From Maricaulis maris (GTDB taxonomy: Bacteria; Pseudomonadota; Alphaproteobacteria; Caulobacterales; Maricaulaceae), in the NCBI RefSeq assembly GCF_003634045.1, contig NZ_RBIM01000002.1, positions 186,001-250,000 of the forward strand: a stretch of 64,000 nucleotides of DNA, in the 5' to 3' direction. The number at the start of each line of letters is the position of its first letter. The first letter of the stretch is position 1. The translations under genes and the position numbers were made by a program. Below are positions 14,402 to 57,014 of the stretch, in pieces. Under the pieces are notes generated by a model. The model had not been told where the DNA came from. It saw nothing but the letters and a program-made list of their open reading frames with translations, and ran no database searches.

Positions 14402-14479
14402 TGGTCGGAGCGGCGAGATTCGAACTCGCGACCCCCGGTCCCCCAGACCGGTGCGCTAACCGGGCTGCGCCACGCTCCG
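14402..14479 (-). tRNA. tRNA-Pro (anticodon GGG)
   Basis: On the minus strand a complete cloverleaf can be drawn: acceptor stem CGGAGCG pairing with CGCTCCG, D-arm GCGCAGCCCGGTTAGCGC, anticodon stem CCGGT/ACCGG with loop CTGGGGG (anticodon GGG), and T-arm with GTTCGAATC. The discriminator is A and CCA is encoded in the genome. It sits downstream of merR-ihfA-fabH-plsX, a known alphaproteobacterial arrangement. Confidence 0.95.
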
Positions 14480-36867: not shown

Positions 36868-37001
36868 AGCAGCACTCCTGTTGCTATTCGGTTGTTTGGC
36901 GGACAAATCTTGTCCGACGGCTTTGGCCGGAGCCGTAACGCGGGTTTGCCGCGGCGGCAAGTTTGATATGTCATTGCAAACGAACAAGACCAGAGGCCGA
37001 C

Positions 37002-37982
37002 ATGTATCCCAATACCCGCCTTCGCCGCACCCGCCAGGCCGACTGGTCCCGCCGCCTCGTGCGCGAAAATGCCCTGTCGGTGAATGACCTCATCTGGTCG
37101 GTCGTGGTCTCCGACACCGCCGGCCCGGTCGAACCGGTCGCCGCCATGCCCGGCGTGGAACGCCTCTCCCTCGCTGCACTGGCGAAGGCCGCCAAGGAAG
37201 CCCAGGCCCTGGGCATCCCGGCGATGGCGATCTTCCCGCATATCGATCCGGCCAAGAAAGATGATGCCGGCAACGAAGCCCTGAATCCGGACGGCCTCGT
37301 GCCCAATGCCATCCGCACCATCAAGGATGCCGCCCCCGATCTCGGCGTGATCTGTGATGTCGCGCTCGACCCCTTCACCACCCATGGTCATGACGGGATC
37401 CTGCAGGGCGACAGGATCGCCAATGACGAGACCGTCGAACGCCTGATCGAGCAGGCCCTGCTGCAGGCCGCTGCCGGCTGCGATGTCGTCGCCCCGTCCG
37501 ACATGATGGATGGCCGCATCGGTGCCATCCGCGAAGCGCTGGAGGGCGAAGGCCATCACGACACGATGATCCTCTCCTACGCCGCGAAATACGCGTCGGG
37601 CTTTTACGGCCCCTATCGCGAAGCGATCGGTTCAGCGGCGGCGCTGAAAGGCGACAAGCAGACCTATCAGATGGACCCGTCCAATCGCGATGAGTGCCTG
37701 CGCGAGGTCGAACTCGACATCGCCGAGGGCGCCGACATGGTCATGGTCAAGCCCGGCCTGCCCTATCTCGACATCGTCCGCGCCCTCTCCGACACCTTCC
37801 CGGTCCCGGTCTATGCCTTCCAGGTCTCCGGCGAATACGCGATGATCGAAGCCGCCGCCGCCAATGGCTGGATCGATGGCGAACGGGTGATGATGGAGAG
37901 TCTGCTGGCCTTCAAACGGGCGGGGGCAGCGGGGGTTGTGACGTATTTCGCCAAGCGGGCGGCGATGAAGTTGGCGAGGTAG
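37002..37982 (+). CDS. hemB: Delta-aminolevulinic acid dehydratase, Mg-type
   Basis: A 326-residue enzyme that joins two aminolevulinates into porphobilinogen. ATG 37002 with AGAGG upstream gives MYPNTRLRRTRQADWSRRLV. The metal site reads DVALDPFTTHGHDGIL, with Asp replacing the zinc-binding Cys of DVCLCEYTSHGHCG enzymes, so it should be Mg- rather than Zn-dependent, as in other alphaproteobacteria and Pseudomonas. The two catalytic lysines are in MILSYAAKYASGFYGP and MVMVKPGLPYLD. It is divergent from the acyl-CoA dehydrogenase. Confidence 0.96.
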   Translation: MYPNTRLRRTRQADWSRRLVRENALSVNDLIWSVVVSDTAGPVEPVAAMPGVERLSLAALAKAAKEAQALGIPAMAIFPHIDPAKKDDAGNEALNPDGLVPNAIRTIKDAAPDLGVICDVALDPFTTHGHDGILQGDRIANDETVERLIEQALLQAAAGCDVVAPSDMMDGRIGAIREALEGEGHHDTMILSYAAKYASGFYGPYREAIGSAAALKGDKQTYQMDPSNRDECLREVELDIAEGADMVMVKPGLPYLDIVRALSDTFPVPVYAFQVSGEYAMIEAAAANGWIDGERVMMESLLAFKRAGAAGVVTYFAKRAAMKLAR

Positions 37983-37989
37983 CGAGACC

Positions 37990-38379
37990 ATGGCGTGGGG
38001 ACGGATGAAATGTCTCGGTTGCGGGCATGTATTCGATGCCTACGTCGCCGAACTCCAGGATAAGCGGCGACAGCTTGGTCCGGCCGGTGAGCCGATATCT
38101 CACATTGGGGACTATTATCACTTCACTGGTCGTGACCCGATACCGCATTGCCCTGTTTGCAATCTTGCTCAACGCATGGCGATCTGGCCATTCATCCCGC
38201 TGATCTGTTCGTTTGCATCGGTATGGTTGGCCGGGATGACCATGATGGTCATCTTGCTATCCGACAAGATTCCCGACGAATTCGCCGCGCCCTTGCCGTG
38301 GATCGCCGGCATATTTTTCGCGGCAAGCCTCGTCTACGCCATCATTGCTCACTCAATCGCCAAGCCGATCCGCTGCTAG
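37990..38379 (+). CDS. Small membrane protein with four-cysteine zinc-ribbon-like motif
   Basis: A 129-residue protein starting 7 bp after the hemB stop, so probably co-transcribed. Two CxxC pairs (Cys8/Cys11 in MKCLGCGHVF and Cys54/Cys57 in PHCPVCNLAQ) suggest one cytosolic zinc ribbon of ~50 residues, followed by two membrane helices (about residues 66-88 and 103-122) and a short tail ending KPIRC. I recognise no named family. It could be a hypothetical membrane-associated redox or metal sensor; proximity to hemB is the only clue. Confidence 0.7.
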   Translation: MAWGRMKCLGCGHVFDAYVAELQDKRRQLGPAGEPISHIGDYYHFTGRDPIPHCPVCNLAQRMAIWPFIPLICSFASVWLAGMTMMVILLSDKIPDEFAAPLPWIAGIFFAASLVYAIIAHSIAKPIRC

Positions 38380-38399
38380 CGCCTTTGGCGCCCACGCCG

Positions 38400-38530
38400 C
38401 CATAAACCGCTTGCCGAGAGAAAGCCGTATCCGGTTCTTGAGCTCAAGGGTTTCAACCGCGGAGCGGCGCCTGCGGCGCCCTTGACTTGAAGAAACGGAT
38501 ACGGCCCGCTGGCTGACAAGTGATTTAAGG
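38400..38530. repeat. Dispersed long palindromic element, copy A
   Basis: This ~131-bp element has imperfect outer arms (CCATAAACCGCTTG against CCTTAAATCACTTG), different spacers on each side (CCGAGAG on the left, TCAGCCAGC on the right when read inward), and a 26-bp inner stem from 38425 to 38504 beginning CCGTATCC on both arms and ending CAAGGG. The centre holds CGGAGCGGCGCCTGCGGCGC. The same element in opposite orientation is at 55819-55948, with compensating stem changes. It lies 20 bp after the zinc-ribbon gene. Confidence 0.85.
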
Positions 38531-38580
38531 TCGGCTCCGCGCGAGGCGCCGATTTTTTTCGCACCGCGCACCTCCAGCTG

Positions 38581-38698
38581 TTGTCATCCCGGATGGACGC
38601 CCCGCGAAGGTGGGGCGAAAGTCAGGGACCTAGATGTTCGAATACATAGGTCCCCGCCATCCGTCCGGCCTTCGCCGGACATACTGCGGGGATGACAA
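38581..38698. repeat. Long inverted repeat, TTGTCATCCC family
   Basis: Arms start TTGTCATCCC on the left and end GGGATGACAA on the right; inside, GCGAAGG/CCTTCGC and GGGACCTA/TAGGTCCC also pair, giving an imperfect ~50-bp stem with an apex near GATGTTCGAATACAT. Elements with GTCATCCC ends and GGGACCT cores occur in many alphaproteobacterial genomes. No coding content is seen. The rest of this gap (38699-38927) holds only promoter-like AT-richer DNA before the next gene. Confidence 0.8.
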
Positions 38699-38927
38699 GT
38701 GTACCGGGAAGGAAGGATTGCGCATGCCGTGCTCATCCCGTCGCAAATGACCTGCCGAGAGACAGCATCCCGACCCTTGCCAGAAATCAAAATAGAGTAT
38801 GCCGAACCCCAGTAATCCACAATATATAGCGCGACGACGCTTGCGTCACCCGTAACACAGGCCTACCGTCCGTCATGTGTTGTGGTTCACGAGCGTTGTT
38901 GCAAACAAACACTCTGGGGAGACACAC

Positions 38928-39385: not shown

Positions 39386-40531
39386 ATGTCCAACAAACCG
39401 ACCCGCACCACCCTCACCGTCCAGGCCCTGCACGCGATCGACGAAATAACCGGCGCGGTCATCCCGCCAATTCATCCGGCGACGACCTATGCGCGCGACG
39501 CTGACAACCAGCTGATCGGTGAGCAGGATTATCGCCGCCCCTCGGGTCCGACCGAGAAACAGGCGGCCCGGGTTCTGGCCATGCTGGAGGGCGCGCCGGA
39601 GGCCAAATTGTTTTCCTCCGGGATGGCAGCCATCACGGCGGTGATTGAGAGCGTGCCGACGGGCGGCCATGTGATCGCCCAGACCGAAATGTATTACGGC
39701 GCCAAATTGCTGATGCAGCGCGCGGCGGGGAAGAAGCGGATATCGCTCAATCTCGTCGCCCCCGGCGACCTGCACGCCCTCACCGCCGCCGCCCGGCCCG
39801 ACACAGACCTGATCTGGATCGAAAGCCCGGCCAACCCGTCCTGGGCGGTCGTCGATATCGCCAAGACGGCCGATATCGCCCATGCGGTCGGAGCGACACT
39901 GGCGGTCGATTCAACCTGCGCCCCGCCCTGCACCACCCAGGCCCTGGCGCTGGGCGCCGATATCGTCATGCATTCGGCAACCAAATACCTCAACGGCCAT
40001 TCCGATGTGCTGGCCGGCGTTTTGGCGACGCGGGAGGTCAATGAGCGCTGGACCGAGATCGGCGAGATTCACTCCAAGACGGGCGCGGTGCCCGGTGCAT
40101 TCGAGACCTGGCTTCTGATCCGGGGCCTGCGCACACTCTGGGTCCGCTTCGAGCGGCAAAGTACCAGTGCATTGGCCATCGCCGAGGCGCTGCAGGGCGC
40201 GGACGGGCTTGAGGCCGTCCTCTATCCGGGCCTGGCGGACCATCCCGGACATGCAATCGCGGCACGTCAGATGACGAACGGTTTTGGCGGCATGCTCTCG
40301 CTGCACATCGCAGGTGGCTACGAGGCCGCGGCCCGTTTTGCGGCGTCGACACGGATCTTCACCCAGGCGACCTCGCTGGGCGGCGTGGAAAGCCTCGTCG
40401 AACATCGCAAACCGATCGAGGGGCCGGACAGTCCGGTGGCCGACAATCTGGTGCGGCTGTCAGTCGGACTGGAGGACGCAGCCGACCTGCTGGTCGACAT
40501 CCGCCAGGCGCTCCGTCACGGGCGGATTTAA
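39386..40531 (+). CDS. PLP-dependent trans-sulfuration enzyme (cystathionine gamma-synthase/beta-lyase family)
   Basis: A 381-residue Cys/Met-metabolism PLP enzyme. Conserved are AVIPPIHPATTYAR, DYRRPSGPTEKQAARVLAML, LFSSGMAAITAVIE, TEMYYGAKLLM, the Asp in AVDSTCAPPCTTQAL and the PLP lysine in MHSATKYLNGHSDVLAG. The family includes MetB, MetC, MetZ and methionine gamma-lyase; the sequence alone does not separate them, though homologues are usually called cystathionine gamma-synthase. It stands alone without other methionine genes. Confidence 0.9.
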   Translation: MSNKPTRTTLTVQALHAIDEITGAVIPPIHPATTYARDADNQLIGEQDYRRPSGPTEKQAARVLAMLEGAPEAKLFSSGMAAITAVIESVPTGGHVIAQTEMYYGAKLLMQRAAGKKRISLNLVAPGDLHALTAAARPDTDLIWIESPANPSWAVVDIAKTADIAHAVGATLAVDSTCAPPCTTQALALGADIVMHSATKYLNGHSDVLAGVLATREVNERWTEIGEIHSKTGAVPGAFETWLLIRGLRTLWVRFERQSTSALAIAEALQGADGLEAVLYPGLADHPGHAIAARQMTNGFGGMLSLHIAGGYEAAARFAASTRIFTQATSLGGVESLVEHRKPIEGPDSPVADNLVRLSVGLEDAADLLVDIRQALRHGRI

Positions 40532-54837: not shown

Positions 54838-55656
54838 TCAGCTCTCGCCGGTCCGGTCGAAACCCGCCTCAACCTCGCGCAGGAAACGGCTGACTTCGCG
54901 CATGCTGAGCGAGGCCGCCAAGGCATCGCATTCCAGCCTGGCCGTGTCGGAGTAATAGCCCCGCATGGCGGAAATCGCGGTGCGATGGGCCGCAATATCG
55001 CCGGGCGGCGCGGCGCGCAAAAGCGCCTTGAACTCGGACAGGGCTTCACGATCACTCGCGGTCGGCATTTCCAGCGCCGCAAACAAGGCGTCGACATAGT
55101 CAAGATAGAGTTCAGGCCGATTGCCGACGAGGTCCGGGGCGTGGCCGTCAAACAGATGGCCATAGGTTTCGCCATAGGCCTGACCCACCGGATTGGTGTG
55201 GGCATAGCTGTCGCCCAGCGCATGGACCAAAAAGCCGGTCTGCCAGGAGGCCCGGGCTTCGGACCGGTTGCGCGCTTCAATCATGTTGGCCAGATCGAGC
55301 CGGCGTTGCGCAACGGCGGCCGGGTCCCCGCCATGCAGCGAATGCAGGACGGCATTGATCCGGTGCCGATAACCCCAGGCTCCGAACGACGCCCAGACGC
55401 TGACCTGCGGCGCCGCATAGCGCATCGCCAGATCGTCGGCGGCCTGGTTGAAAAAGGCCAGCCGGGCCGCATCTTCGGAGCCATGCCCGGCGAGACGGGC
55501 AATCACATAGGTCGTCTCCTGATGCCCGTCACGCTGGTATTTCGGCTGAACATGGGCCTCCAGGCAATTGGGATTGAGGCTGCGATAGCCCGGCGTCGAG
55601 CAGGCCGCGAGCGCGGTGAGTGACACCAGTGCGGCCGTGCGAAGCAGAAATTTCAT
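54838..55656 (-). CDS. Predicted lipoprotein, zinc phospholipase-C/S1-P1-like fold
   Basis: A 272-residue exported protein with lipobox ALAACS (Cys19). Residues ~45-150 are helical with QETTYVIARLAGHGSEDAAR near the start, RRLDLANMIEARNRSEARAS, and the motif FLVHALGDSYAHTNP, whose His-Asp-His pattern resembles zinc ligands of phospholipase C/S1-P1 nuclease-like proteins and the DUF6765 group. Catalytic activity is not proven. It is convergent with the AI-2E transporter gene, with 4 bp between stops. Confidence 0.7.
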   Translation of the reverse strand: MKFLLRTAALVSLTALAACSTPGYRSLNPNCLEAHVQPKYQRDGHQETTYVIARLAGHGSEDAARLAFFNQAADDLAMRYAAPQVSVWASFGAWGYRHRINAVLHSLHGGDPAAVAQRRLDLANMIEARNRSEARASWQTGFLVHALGDSYAHTNPVGQAYGETYGHLFDGHAPDLVGNRPELYLDYVDALFAALEMPTASDREALSEFKALLRAAPPGDIAAHRTAISAMRGYYSDTARLECDALAASLSMREVSRFLREVEAGFDRTGES

Positions 55657-55818
55657 GTGGTTCGTCCCCCGGGCGTGAAGCGCCCCTTTCGGGGAGGTTA
55701 GAGGGTGGGGACGCTTCTGCCAAAGGATTGCCGCCTACTGCATGAAACACGTTCCCAACACTGCACCCATGGTCCAGCCATTTCGGTAAGTTCGCACTGC
55801 GCAGCGTGCAGGACTGAT

Positions 55819-55948
55819 CCATAGATCGCTTGTCAGCCAGCAAGCCGCATCCTGTTTTCCAGCTCAAGGGTGAAACCGCGAAGCGGCCGCTGCGCGGCCC
55901 TTGACCTGGAAAACAGGATGCGGCGACGTCTCGGCAAGCGATTTACGG
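55819..55948. repeat. Dispersed long palindromic element, copy B (inverted relative to copy A)
   Basis: This ~130-bp element has outer arms CCATAGATCGCTTG and CCGTAAATCGCTTG (right end read inward), spacers TCAGCCAGC on the left and CCGAGAC on the right, i.e. reversed from copy A, and a nearly perfect 26-bp inner stem beginning CCGCATCCTG on both arms and ending CAAGGG. The centre holds CGAAGCGGCCGCTGCGCGGC. It occupies most of the 338-bp gap between the lipoprotein and the M48 protease gene; the rest of that gap shows nothing recognisable. Confidence 0.85.
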
Positions 55949-55994
55949 ACAATCGCGCGCCCGGGCGCGATCAATGAACCATTTCTGCCTCGCC

Positions 55995-57014
55995 CTAGAC
56001 CTCAGGCACGGCACTCACCGGCACGCGCCGTTTGCCGCCGGCGTGTTCGACCAGCATCTCGATGCGTTTTTCAATCGGTGGGTGGGTGGCGAAAACGCCC
56101 ATGAAGCCGGACTTCGGATTCTCGATGAACATCTCGCGGACTTCGTCCGGTGAGTCCTCGATGTCGGAATTCCCGGAAATCTTCTCCAGCGCCGAGATCA
56201 TGGCGTCAGGATTTCGGGTCAGCTCGACGGCGCCGGCATCGGCCATGTATTCGCGGCGGCGCGACAGGGAAAAGCGGATCATGATGGCGAGGAAATAGGC
56301 CACGGCGATGATCGCAATGGCGATCACGATGACCAGCCCGCCGCCGCGTCCGCCCGAACGGCGGTCGCCACCTGCGCGCATGCCCATCCAGAACATGCGG
56401 CGAAACATGATCTCGGCGACAAAGGAGATGATGCCCACAAAGATGATCGAGATGACCAGCAGTCGCACATCCTGATGCCGGATATGCGAAAGCTCGTGAG
56501 CCAGAACGGCTTCCAGCTCGGCCTTGTTGAGCCGCTGCATCAGACCGCGGGTCACAGTGACCGTGTATTGCCCCTCGCGGACACCCGAGGCATAGGCATT
56601 GAGCGCACCGCTTTCGATCACGGCCAGTTTCGGCATGGTCAGCCCGCGTGAGATGCACAGGTTTTCCAGCAGATTATAGAGTTCCGGCTCGTCCTTGCGC
56701 GTCACCGAATGCGCACCGGTCGCGGCATTGATCATGGCCTGATGGCCAAACCAGGCGATGATGAACCAGACACCGGCAATCCCCAGTGACCAAGCCGCGA
56801 TCATCGGCAAGCGGGAGATTTCCGACGTCAGGAAATCAGTCCCGCCCCCGTCCTTGCCGGCTTGCGGATAGGACGGGTCGCCAAATCCGGTCATCAGGAT
56901 TGTCAGGGCATAGCCAATGGCGATCAGCAGAAGCGGGAATGCCGCCAGCAGGAAAACCGACCGCAGATTATTGTTCCAGATATGGGTGCGGAGCCCTGTT
57001 GCGCCGCCCAACAT
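55995..57014 (-). CDS. M48-family (HtpX-like) membrane metalloprotease
   Basis: A 339-residue zinc protease. The catalytic motif is AHELSHIRHQD with His173, preceded by YTVTVTRGLMQRLNKAELEA and followed by the third ligand region SRRREYMADAGAVELTRNPD. Two membrane helices lie near the N-terminus (VFLLAAFPLLLIAIGYALTI and MIAAWSLGIAGVWFIIAW) and one or two after the active site (LVIVIAIAIIAVAYFLAIMI). It cuts misfolded membrane proteins in related bacteria. Three bp separate it from lemA, a frequent pairing. Confidence 0.93.
   Translation of the reverse strand: MLGGATGLRTHIWNNNLRSVFLLAAFPLLLIAIGYALTILMTGFGDPSYPQAGKDGGGTDFLTSEISRLPMIAAWSLGIAGVWFIIAWFGHQAMINAATGAHSVTRKDEPELYNLLENLCISRGLTMPKLAVIESGALNAYASGVREGQYTVTVTRGLMQRLNKAELEAVLAHELSHIRHQDVRLLVISIIFVGIISFVAEIMFRRMFWMGMRAGGDRRSGGRGGGLVIVIAIAIIAVAYFLAIMIRFSLSRRREYMADAGAVELTRNPDAMISALEKISGNSDIEDSPDEVREMFIENPKSGFMGVFATHPPIEKRIEMLVEHAGGKRRVPVSAVPEV

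Follow-up and report, generated by a model that had tools for sequence, protein, structure and literature searches.

The enterobacterial intergenic repeat units RU-1 and RU-2 are often called ERIC or IRU. Their published description, in the sections drawn on here, gives a length of 127 bp for RU-1 and 168 bp for RU-2 (PMC2759123), and by that description they are like the element reported in this work in size, intergenic placement and MITE-like nature; they belong to another bacterial class. REPINs and their RAYTs, as presented in the relevant passages of PMC3116915 and PMC8266576, are likewise short, intergenic, non-autonomous and able to form a hairpin in single-stranded DNA; unlike them, our element is a much larger unit in which no GTAG tag was seen, in a host without a PF01797 gene. 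The CGTC-tagged palindromes of PMC3733652 are, according to the portions of that paper used here, palindromic, found mostly in alphaproteobacteria and without a dedicated transposase, in all of which they resemble the element, and they differ from it in having stems of 8-9 bp. A further comparison is with inverted repeats altered by template switching, which has been described, in the excerpts of the two papers considered, as homogenising arms and inverting spacers (PMC8604942) and as leaving RNA genes with inverted loops and with multiple compensatory changes (PMC8794818). The element shares with those repeats the homogenisation of arms, the multiple paired changes and the inversion of the spacer or loop; the reports, as far as these excerpts go, concern yeast coding DNA and RNA genes, whereas here we deal with a dispersed bacterial repeat.

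Here we describe a palindromic element of Maricaulis maris that is present as copies A and B in the window, by which we mean the whole stretch of 64,000 nucleotides that was analysed. The reading we favour, with a probability of roughly two in three, is that it is a non-coding, non-autonomous, MITE/REP-like palindrome spreading in Maricaulis intergenic DNA, whose arms have been matched and whose apex has been turned by template switching. The unit measures about 175 bp. Its GC-rich apex sits on a 26-bp inner stem, which is flanked by two conserved spacers, then by outer arms and, at the ends, by GCGC mini-hairpins (Table 1). An earlier note on this DNA had placed copy A at 38400-38530 and copy B at 55819-55948, with the same layered design in both and B reversed relative to A; the positions and the design are as it described, and the swapped spacers bear out the reversal. 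Where the two copies differ, the arms do change together as it had said, copy A having CCGTATCC on each of its arms where copy B has CCGCATCC. To this picture we add the inversion of the apex in copy B, the high copy number, and the extent of about 175 bp. The ends were set by column conservation (46 copies for the left end, 48 for the right), and the unit runs about 24 bp further left and 21 bp further right than the limits given above, into GCGC-N3/5-GCGC mini-hairpins, where it stops. The left spacer is kept among the copies as CCGRGA and the right as GCTGGCTGA, and there is almost no variation in the TCAAGG box or at most of the spacer positions. The inner arms, 27 nt long in copy A, are 85% complementary there and 96% complementary in copy B, and the predicted folds have z-scores of -5.6 for copy A and -10.2 for copy B, with none of 200 shuffles folding as well in either case. 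The outer arms are imperfectly paired, in copy A CCATAAACCGCTTG against CAAGTGATTTAAGG.

Table 1. Positions in the window of copies A and B of the element and of their parts.
Feature	Position	Strand	Remark
Copy A, full unit	38376..38551	+	~176 bp; column conservation
Copy A, left terminal mini-hairpin	38379..38391	+	GCGCC-TTT-GGCGC; inner GCGC bases each kept in 42-45 of 46 copies
Copy A, left outer arm	38400..38413	+	
Copy A, left spacer	38414..38423	+	CCGRGA conserved
Copy A, left inner arm	38424..38450	+	3' end is the nearly invariant TCAAGG box
Copy A, GC-rich apex	38451..38478	+	orientation type A
Copy A, right inner arm	38479..38505	+	
Copy A, right spacer	38506..38516	+	GCTGGCTGA conserved
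Copy A, right outer arm	38517..38530	+	
Copy A, right terminal mini-hairpin	38539..38549	+	GCGC-GAG-GCGC
Copy B, full unit	55798..55972	-	reversed, by spacers
Copy B, right outer arm	55819..55832	-	named as read on the minus strand
Copy B, right spacer	55833..55843	-	TTGCTGGCTGA on the minus strand
Copy B, inner arm	55844..55870	-	
Copy B, apex	55871..55897	-	orientation type B, inverted relative to the spacers
Copy B, inner arm	55898..55924	-	
Copy B, left spacer	55925..55934	-	CCGAGACGTC on the minus strand
Copy B, left outer arm	55935..55948	-	named as read on the minus strand

Copy A lies downstream of a delta-aminolevulinic acid dehydratase gene (36963-37982) and upstream of a gene for a Cys/Met-metabolism enzyme (39386-40531), and the small ORFs between these two genes have no Pfam match. 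Copy B lies between an ORF at 54838-55656 (minus strand, with a marginal DUF6765 match) and an M48 peptidase gene at 55995-57014 (minus strand). The surroundings of copy A are a variable site: the adjoining segment 37967-38400, with its ORF 37990-38379, has no match in nine genus genomes among the matches listed, and at the corresponding locus of the related genome G016 similarity resumes within the apex of copy A. Rfam models, run over the whole window, matched a tRNA and nothing at copy A or B; this tRNA-Pro (GGG) at 14402-14479 is the sole RNA gene found in the window.

The earlier note had suggested a search of this and related genomes with a covariance model, and such a search did recover further copies, with paired substitutions, in the host and in its relatives. 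By blastn with each copy and then with a covariance model built from 45 copies oriented by their spacers, 56 places were counted in the 3.57-Mb Maricaulis maris genome: 54 full-length model matches, one partial match interrupted by a run of N (C7:215489) and a half copy on contig C9, with the short matches C7:3909 and C7:91396 excluded as inner-hairpin deletions. The 45 copies, which align well once oriented in this way, are what remained of 49 aligned copies after L015:3581 (a run of N in the flank) and L015:3802, L046 and L047 (anchor missing) were dropped. The element is intergenic in all 54 copies checked, a set without the places C9 and C3:391164, in that predicted genes overlap the core by at most 20 bases; the terminal hairpin enters a predicted gene by 1-28 bases in 5 of the 54. 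The gene calls are those of our own codon-based predictor, not a curated annotation. Both neighbours were called for 42 copies (the 12 of 54 without a neighbour call being left out), and these occupy 19 tandem, 16 convergent and 7 divergent gaps. Convergent gaps account for 7512 of the 47348 intergenic bases on contig C7, and the excess of copies in them has a p of 0.0004 by bases and of 0.005 by gap number (gaps of at least 150 bases). By a hand tally, the copies in tandem gaps lie on the gene strand in 12 cases and on the opposite strand in 7. The copies are also unevenly spread along the genome. Contig C7 holds 15 of the 56 places (binomial tail 1.8e-5) and C4 holds one (0.004), and 11 pairs of neighbouring copies are less than 5 kb apart against 6.0 expected with per-contig counts kept (37 of 2000 simulations as high). 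By eye, and among the matches listed, there is crowding too at about 0.5-1.9 Mb in G016 and about 1.7-2.2 Mb in G010.

Beyond the host, a genome survey with stricter filters found model matches in 17 of 19 genus genomes (host included), in none of 18 further genomes of the family to which the genus belongs and in 3 of 24 from the order's remaining families. Within the genus, a genome has between 0 and at least 56 matches; both strands may count, so these are not copy numbers. The exact core pattern occurs in 74 stretches of the named genomes, 34 of them with a model match at E ≤1e-8. Three Maricaulis MAGs account for 33 of these 34, and the last (L114) comes from an unclassified alphaproteobacterial MAG; the remaining 40 include chance 19-mers in unrelated bacteria as well as Maricaulis stretches without such a match. 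In G033 and G037, from another family of the order, five loci carry TCAAGG...CCTTGA atop a long stem, then GCTGGCT, and after it a different hairpin, GGCCGAATGGC...GCCATTCGGCC or near it. Two of these, L227 and L230, resemble each other in their flanks and may represent a single site found in two species. Their apex and, less closely, that of L221 resemble by eye the Maricaulis copies (GGGTGAAA, GCRAAGCG); the apex of L222 is inverted relative to L227 and L230, and that of L228 differs from them but has the same C.C mismatch (both by eye). We take the five loci as distant relatives. A match in G055, which has TCAAGGG/CCCTTGA without GCTGGCT, is doubtful as a relative and was left out. Blastn of copy A against the plasmid and phage collections gave no match. 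A scan of viral contigs (IMG/VR) gave five stretches, four of which carry full copies (L231, L232, L233 and L235), and at least L232 is host DNA, since it is identical to the G016 chromosome over 6635 bases. In the open-access literature there is apparently no paper on such a Maricaulis repeat, which is weak evidence of absence, as subscription papers lie mostly outside it.

The earlier note took the paired differences between the arms as a sign of selection for the hairpin itself. The paired changes stand up well against shuffles: among 45 copies, 21 of 39 pairs show two-sided changes, in 124 cells (39.2 in shuffles, none of 500 reaching the observed value), and an alignment of 83 rows, which was fitted to the model and in which one row repeats another on the opposite strand, has 252 such cells against 68.4, the cells in neither case being independent events. 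Selection for the hairpin as the better reading of them did not hold, given the pattern of changes in place, the pattern of wobble pairs and the behaviour of the apex, and abundant paired substitutions by themselves do not show such selection. Over 82 copies the inner stem comprises 2050 cells, of which 2020 are Watson-Crick pairs, 7 G-T, 8 A-C and 15 other, and the wobble pair G-T is thus no commoner than the mismatch A-C. In the outer stem A-C exceeds G-T (57 against 21), where the opposite strand would show an excess of wobble. Double transversions outnumber double transitions, 108 cells to 68; if a pair changed to each of the three other types at the same rate, the ratio would be 2:1, which the observed ratio does not reach, and the excess therefore indicates no more than that the wobble route is not the dominant one. 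Among paralogues the outer stem too has two-sided differences, at the pair of columns 10 and 125, and none arose in place in the comparisons that follow.

How the arms change in place can be followed at sites that are syntenic between species, for which we made 16 comparisons at 14 sites, host against G016 or G010. In the inner stem we counted 12 Watson-Crick changes that were two-sided, 2 further two-sided changes and 7 that were one-sided; the corresponding counts for the outer stem are 0, 1 and 42. The numbers are small, and two of the 14 sites compare the host copy twice, with G016 and with G010, so that the host's own changes count twice there. If the arms changed independently, 35 base changes over 800 arm positions would by our own arithmetic give about 0.8 two-sided cells in the inner stem. 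The 14 comparisons between host and G016 alone give 11 two-sided Watson-Crick, 2 other two-sided and 4 one-sided changes in the inner stem and 0, 0 and 35 in the outer stem. The most changed site, L025/L190, is the source of 5 of the 12 two-sided changes, and without it the counts for host and G016 become 6, 2 and 4 in the inner stem and 0, 0 and 34 in the outer stem; with or without that site, two-sided Watson-Crick changes in place are confined to the arms that lie close together. Left out of the count were C7:96822/L194 and C7:194553/g10 (orthology doubtful), L028/L173 (two copies against one) and L171/L176, where L171 falls below the E-value cut and the inner-stem changes are by eye mostly paired. 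The flanks were collinear on both sides in all eight pairs checked, and at L025/L190 G016 has about 0.7 kb extra beside the element. Again by our own arithmetic, 35 of 800 bases changed in place in the inner stem against 44 of 448 in the outer stem, and this low divergence of the inner stem could reflect purifying selection that acts on that stem alone.

The apex, with its C.C or G.G mismatch, is found either way round with respect to the spacers (39 and 31 of 82 copies, the other 12 having G-C), and is inverted not only in copy B but also, by eye, in one of the five distant relatives; a clean inversion of the whole apex in place was not seen between species, the case of L035/L178 being one of remodelling. 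The changes that are paired in place, the lack of a wobble excess and the two orientations of the apex speak for a DNA mechanism, and the paired arm changes look more like copying from arm to arm in DNA than like selection for an RNA. In such a mechanism the long inner quasi-palindrome would fold into a hairpin or cruciform during replication and the polymerase would switch template between the two inner arms, which would re-match them, giving rise to the apparently compensating changes, and could flip the apex. With about 106 bp between them, the outer arms would be beyond the reach of template switching and would drift apart. Some observations count against this account. According to the part of PMC8794818 considered here, that study found no significance for the joint occurrence of a compensatory change and a loop inversion, and, in the element itself, a mismatch adjoining the apex (C.C in 39, G.G in 31 and G-C in 12 of 82 copies) is kept as C.C or G.G in 70 of the 82, which arm-to-arm copying should erase. 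The kept mismatch implies that some of the sequence is under selection or has recently spread. With boxes, spacers and mismatch all kept, selection on part of the sequence is likely, and part of it is probably read by something.

That the element might be a structural DNA site, kept by selection as a cruciform with the paired changes fixed by the same selection, is in our judgement unlikely. Such a site might be the target of a protein of the nucleoid, of replication or of recombination, or serve as a roadblock between convergent genes, which would suit the conserved boxes and spacers, the excess in convergent gaps, the regional crowding (15 of 56 places on C7) and a core common to another family of the order. 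It fits poorly with copy positions that differ between species, with an outer stem that is not maintained in place and with matches per genus genome that vary from 0 to at least 56. We hold it quite improbable that the element is a structured RNA, be it an sRNA, an attenuator or a stabiliser of mRNA ends, whose covariation comes from selection on the RNA. The strong predicted fold and strong covariation are what such an RNA would show; the inner stem, however, has no preference for wobble (7 G-T, 8 A-C), double transitions are not dominant (68 against 108 double transversions), in tandem gaps the element takes either strand (12 on that of the genes, 7 on the other), the apex is found in both orientations, and neither window copy matches Rfam.

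The reading of the earlier note that this is a mobile palindromic unit of MITE/REP-like kind gains support from the copy number, the intergenic placement, the patchiness and a near-identical pair of copies that are not orthologous, and the element is, as a MITE would be, short and non-coding with many dispersed intergenic copies. The presence of copies at syntenic sites differs between species, with untidy borders; clean empty sites were not found, the borders being too diverged, and some of the differences may be deletions. The best case for recent movement is a pair of copies in G016 (L180:8192 and L189:9225) that are 98.5% identical at different loci, the first of them absent from the matching stretch of the host (G000); its borders are not clean. 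Derivatives that have lost most of the inner hairpin (C7:3909-3964, C7:91396-91446, C2:468608 and, in G010, L211:11505), together with half copies broken near the apex (on C9, and in G016 at the site of copy A), show the instability expected of a long palindrome.

Of the hallmarks of transposition that the earlier note had named, a RAYT/TnpA-like transposase and a target-site duplication, both looked for in the host, neither was found. Flanking direct repeats of 2-9 bp were in no excess over shuffled partners for 79 copies, whose ends are placed only to within a few bases. A search of the host genome with the end patterns (up to 3 mismatches) found no longer element that shares either end of the repeat, as an autonomous parent would. 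It returned the known copies, the inner-hairpin deletions, truncated pieces (C2:494429, C9:5224, C7:220970, C7:184541 and C1:394493) and a few matches that look like chance in genes (C2:511647 and C3:161685), the match at C4:208681 being left out of the inspection. The RAYT-type gene (PF01797, Y1_Tnp) is absent from the host by a search that was positive in 5 of the 14 named genomes used as control. Among the 19 genus genomes five have it, copy-rich G010 among them, and copy-rich G006, G015, G016 and G017 do not. The element is palindromic, intergenic and dispersed, as a REPIN is, and a few copies have GGTNNNTGTCMC-like flank motifs above expectation. With the gene missing from the host and from four copy-rich relatives, and with no GTAG-type tag seen by eye at the aligned ends, an origin as a REPIN-type element moved by a RAYT is nonetheless very improbable, and for the host mobilisation by a RAYT is disfavoured. 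We file the element as MITE/REP-like in behaviour and do not assign it to the MITEs or the REPINs, because target duplication, parent and RAYT were tested for and not found.

The favoured reading, a palindrome that spreads and is reshaped by template switching, would have the element moved by an enzyme acting in trans, which might read the conserved boxes, that is the apical GTCAAGG, the spacer motifs CCGRGA and GCTGGCTGA and the terminal GCGC hairpins. More speculatively, and with rather little credence on our part, the boxes, the mismatch, the GCTGGCT spacer and the flippable apex could be the site of an undescribed enzyme that moves hairpin DNA and perhaps actively inverts it, and elements of this type would be old enough to occur in at least two of the order's families, their outer parts being exchangeable.

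The family points to a putative mobilising factor in Maricaulis and its relatives. Its copies and their orthologues provide replicates, and thus a natural system in which template switching can be measured in a bacterium. Covariation is usually taken as the mark of a structured RNA or of a selected hairpin, and the element is a warning for RNA discovery pipelines.

Other short sequences lie beside some of the copies. At 38580-38708 the window holds, next to copy A, a second palindromic repeat family (TGTCATCCC...GGGATGACA) with many matches in relatives, which may be of the CGTC/TGTC-tagged kind treated in the cited portions of PMC3733652. By eye, the TGTC/CGTC-ended repeats beside some copies resemble the CGTC-tagged palindromes, as far as those portions describe them, more than the element itself does. 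The motif GGTNNNTGTCMC is present in the right flank of 6 of 91 copies against 0.33 expected, in three of them 27-28 bases from the core, and GGGACASNNNNAATT in the left flank of 4 of 91 against 0.04 expected, in three of them 51-53 bases away; examples of such flank motifs are at L018:1487, L184:8133, L185:3570 and C7:51961.
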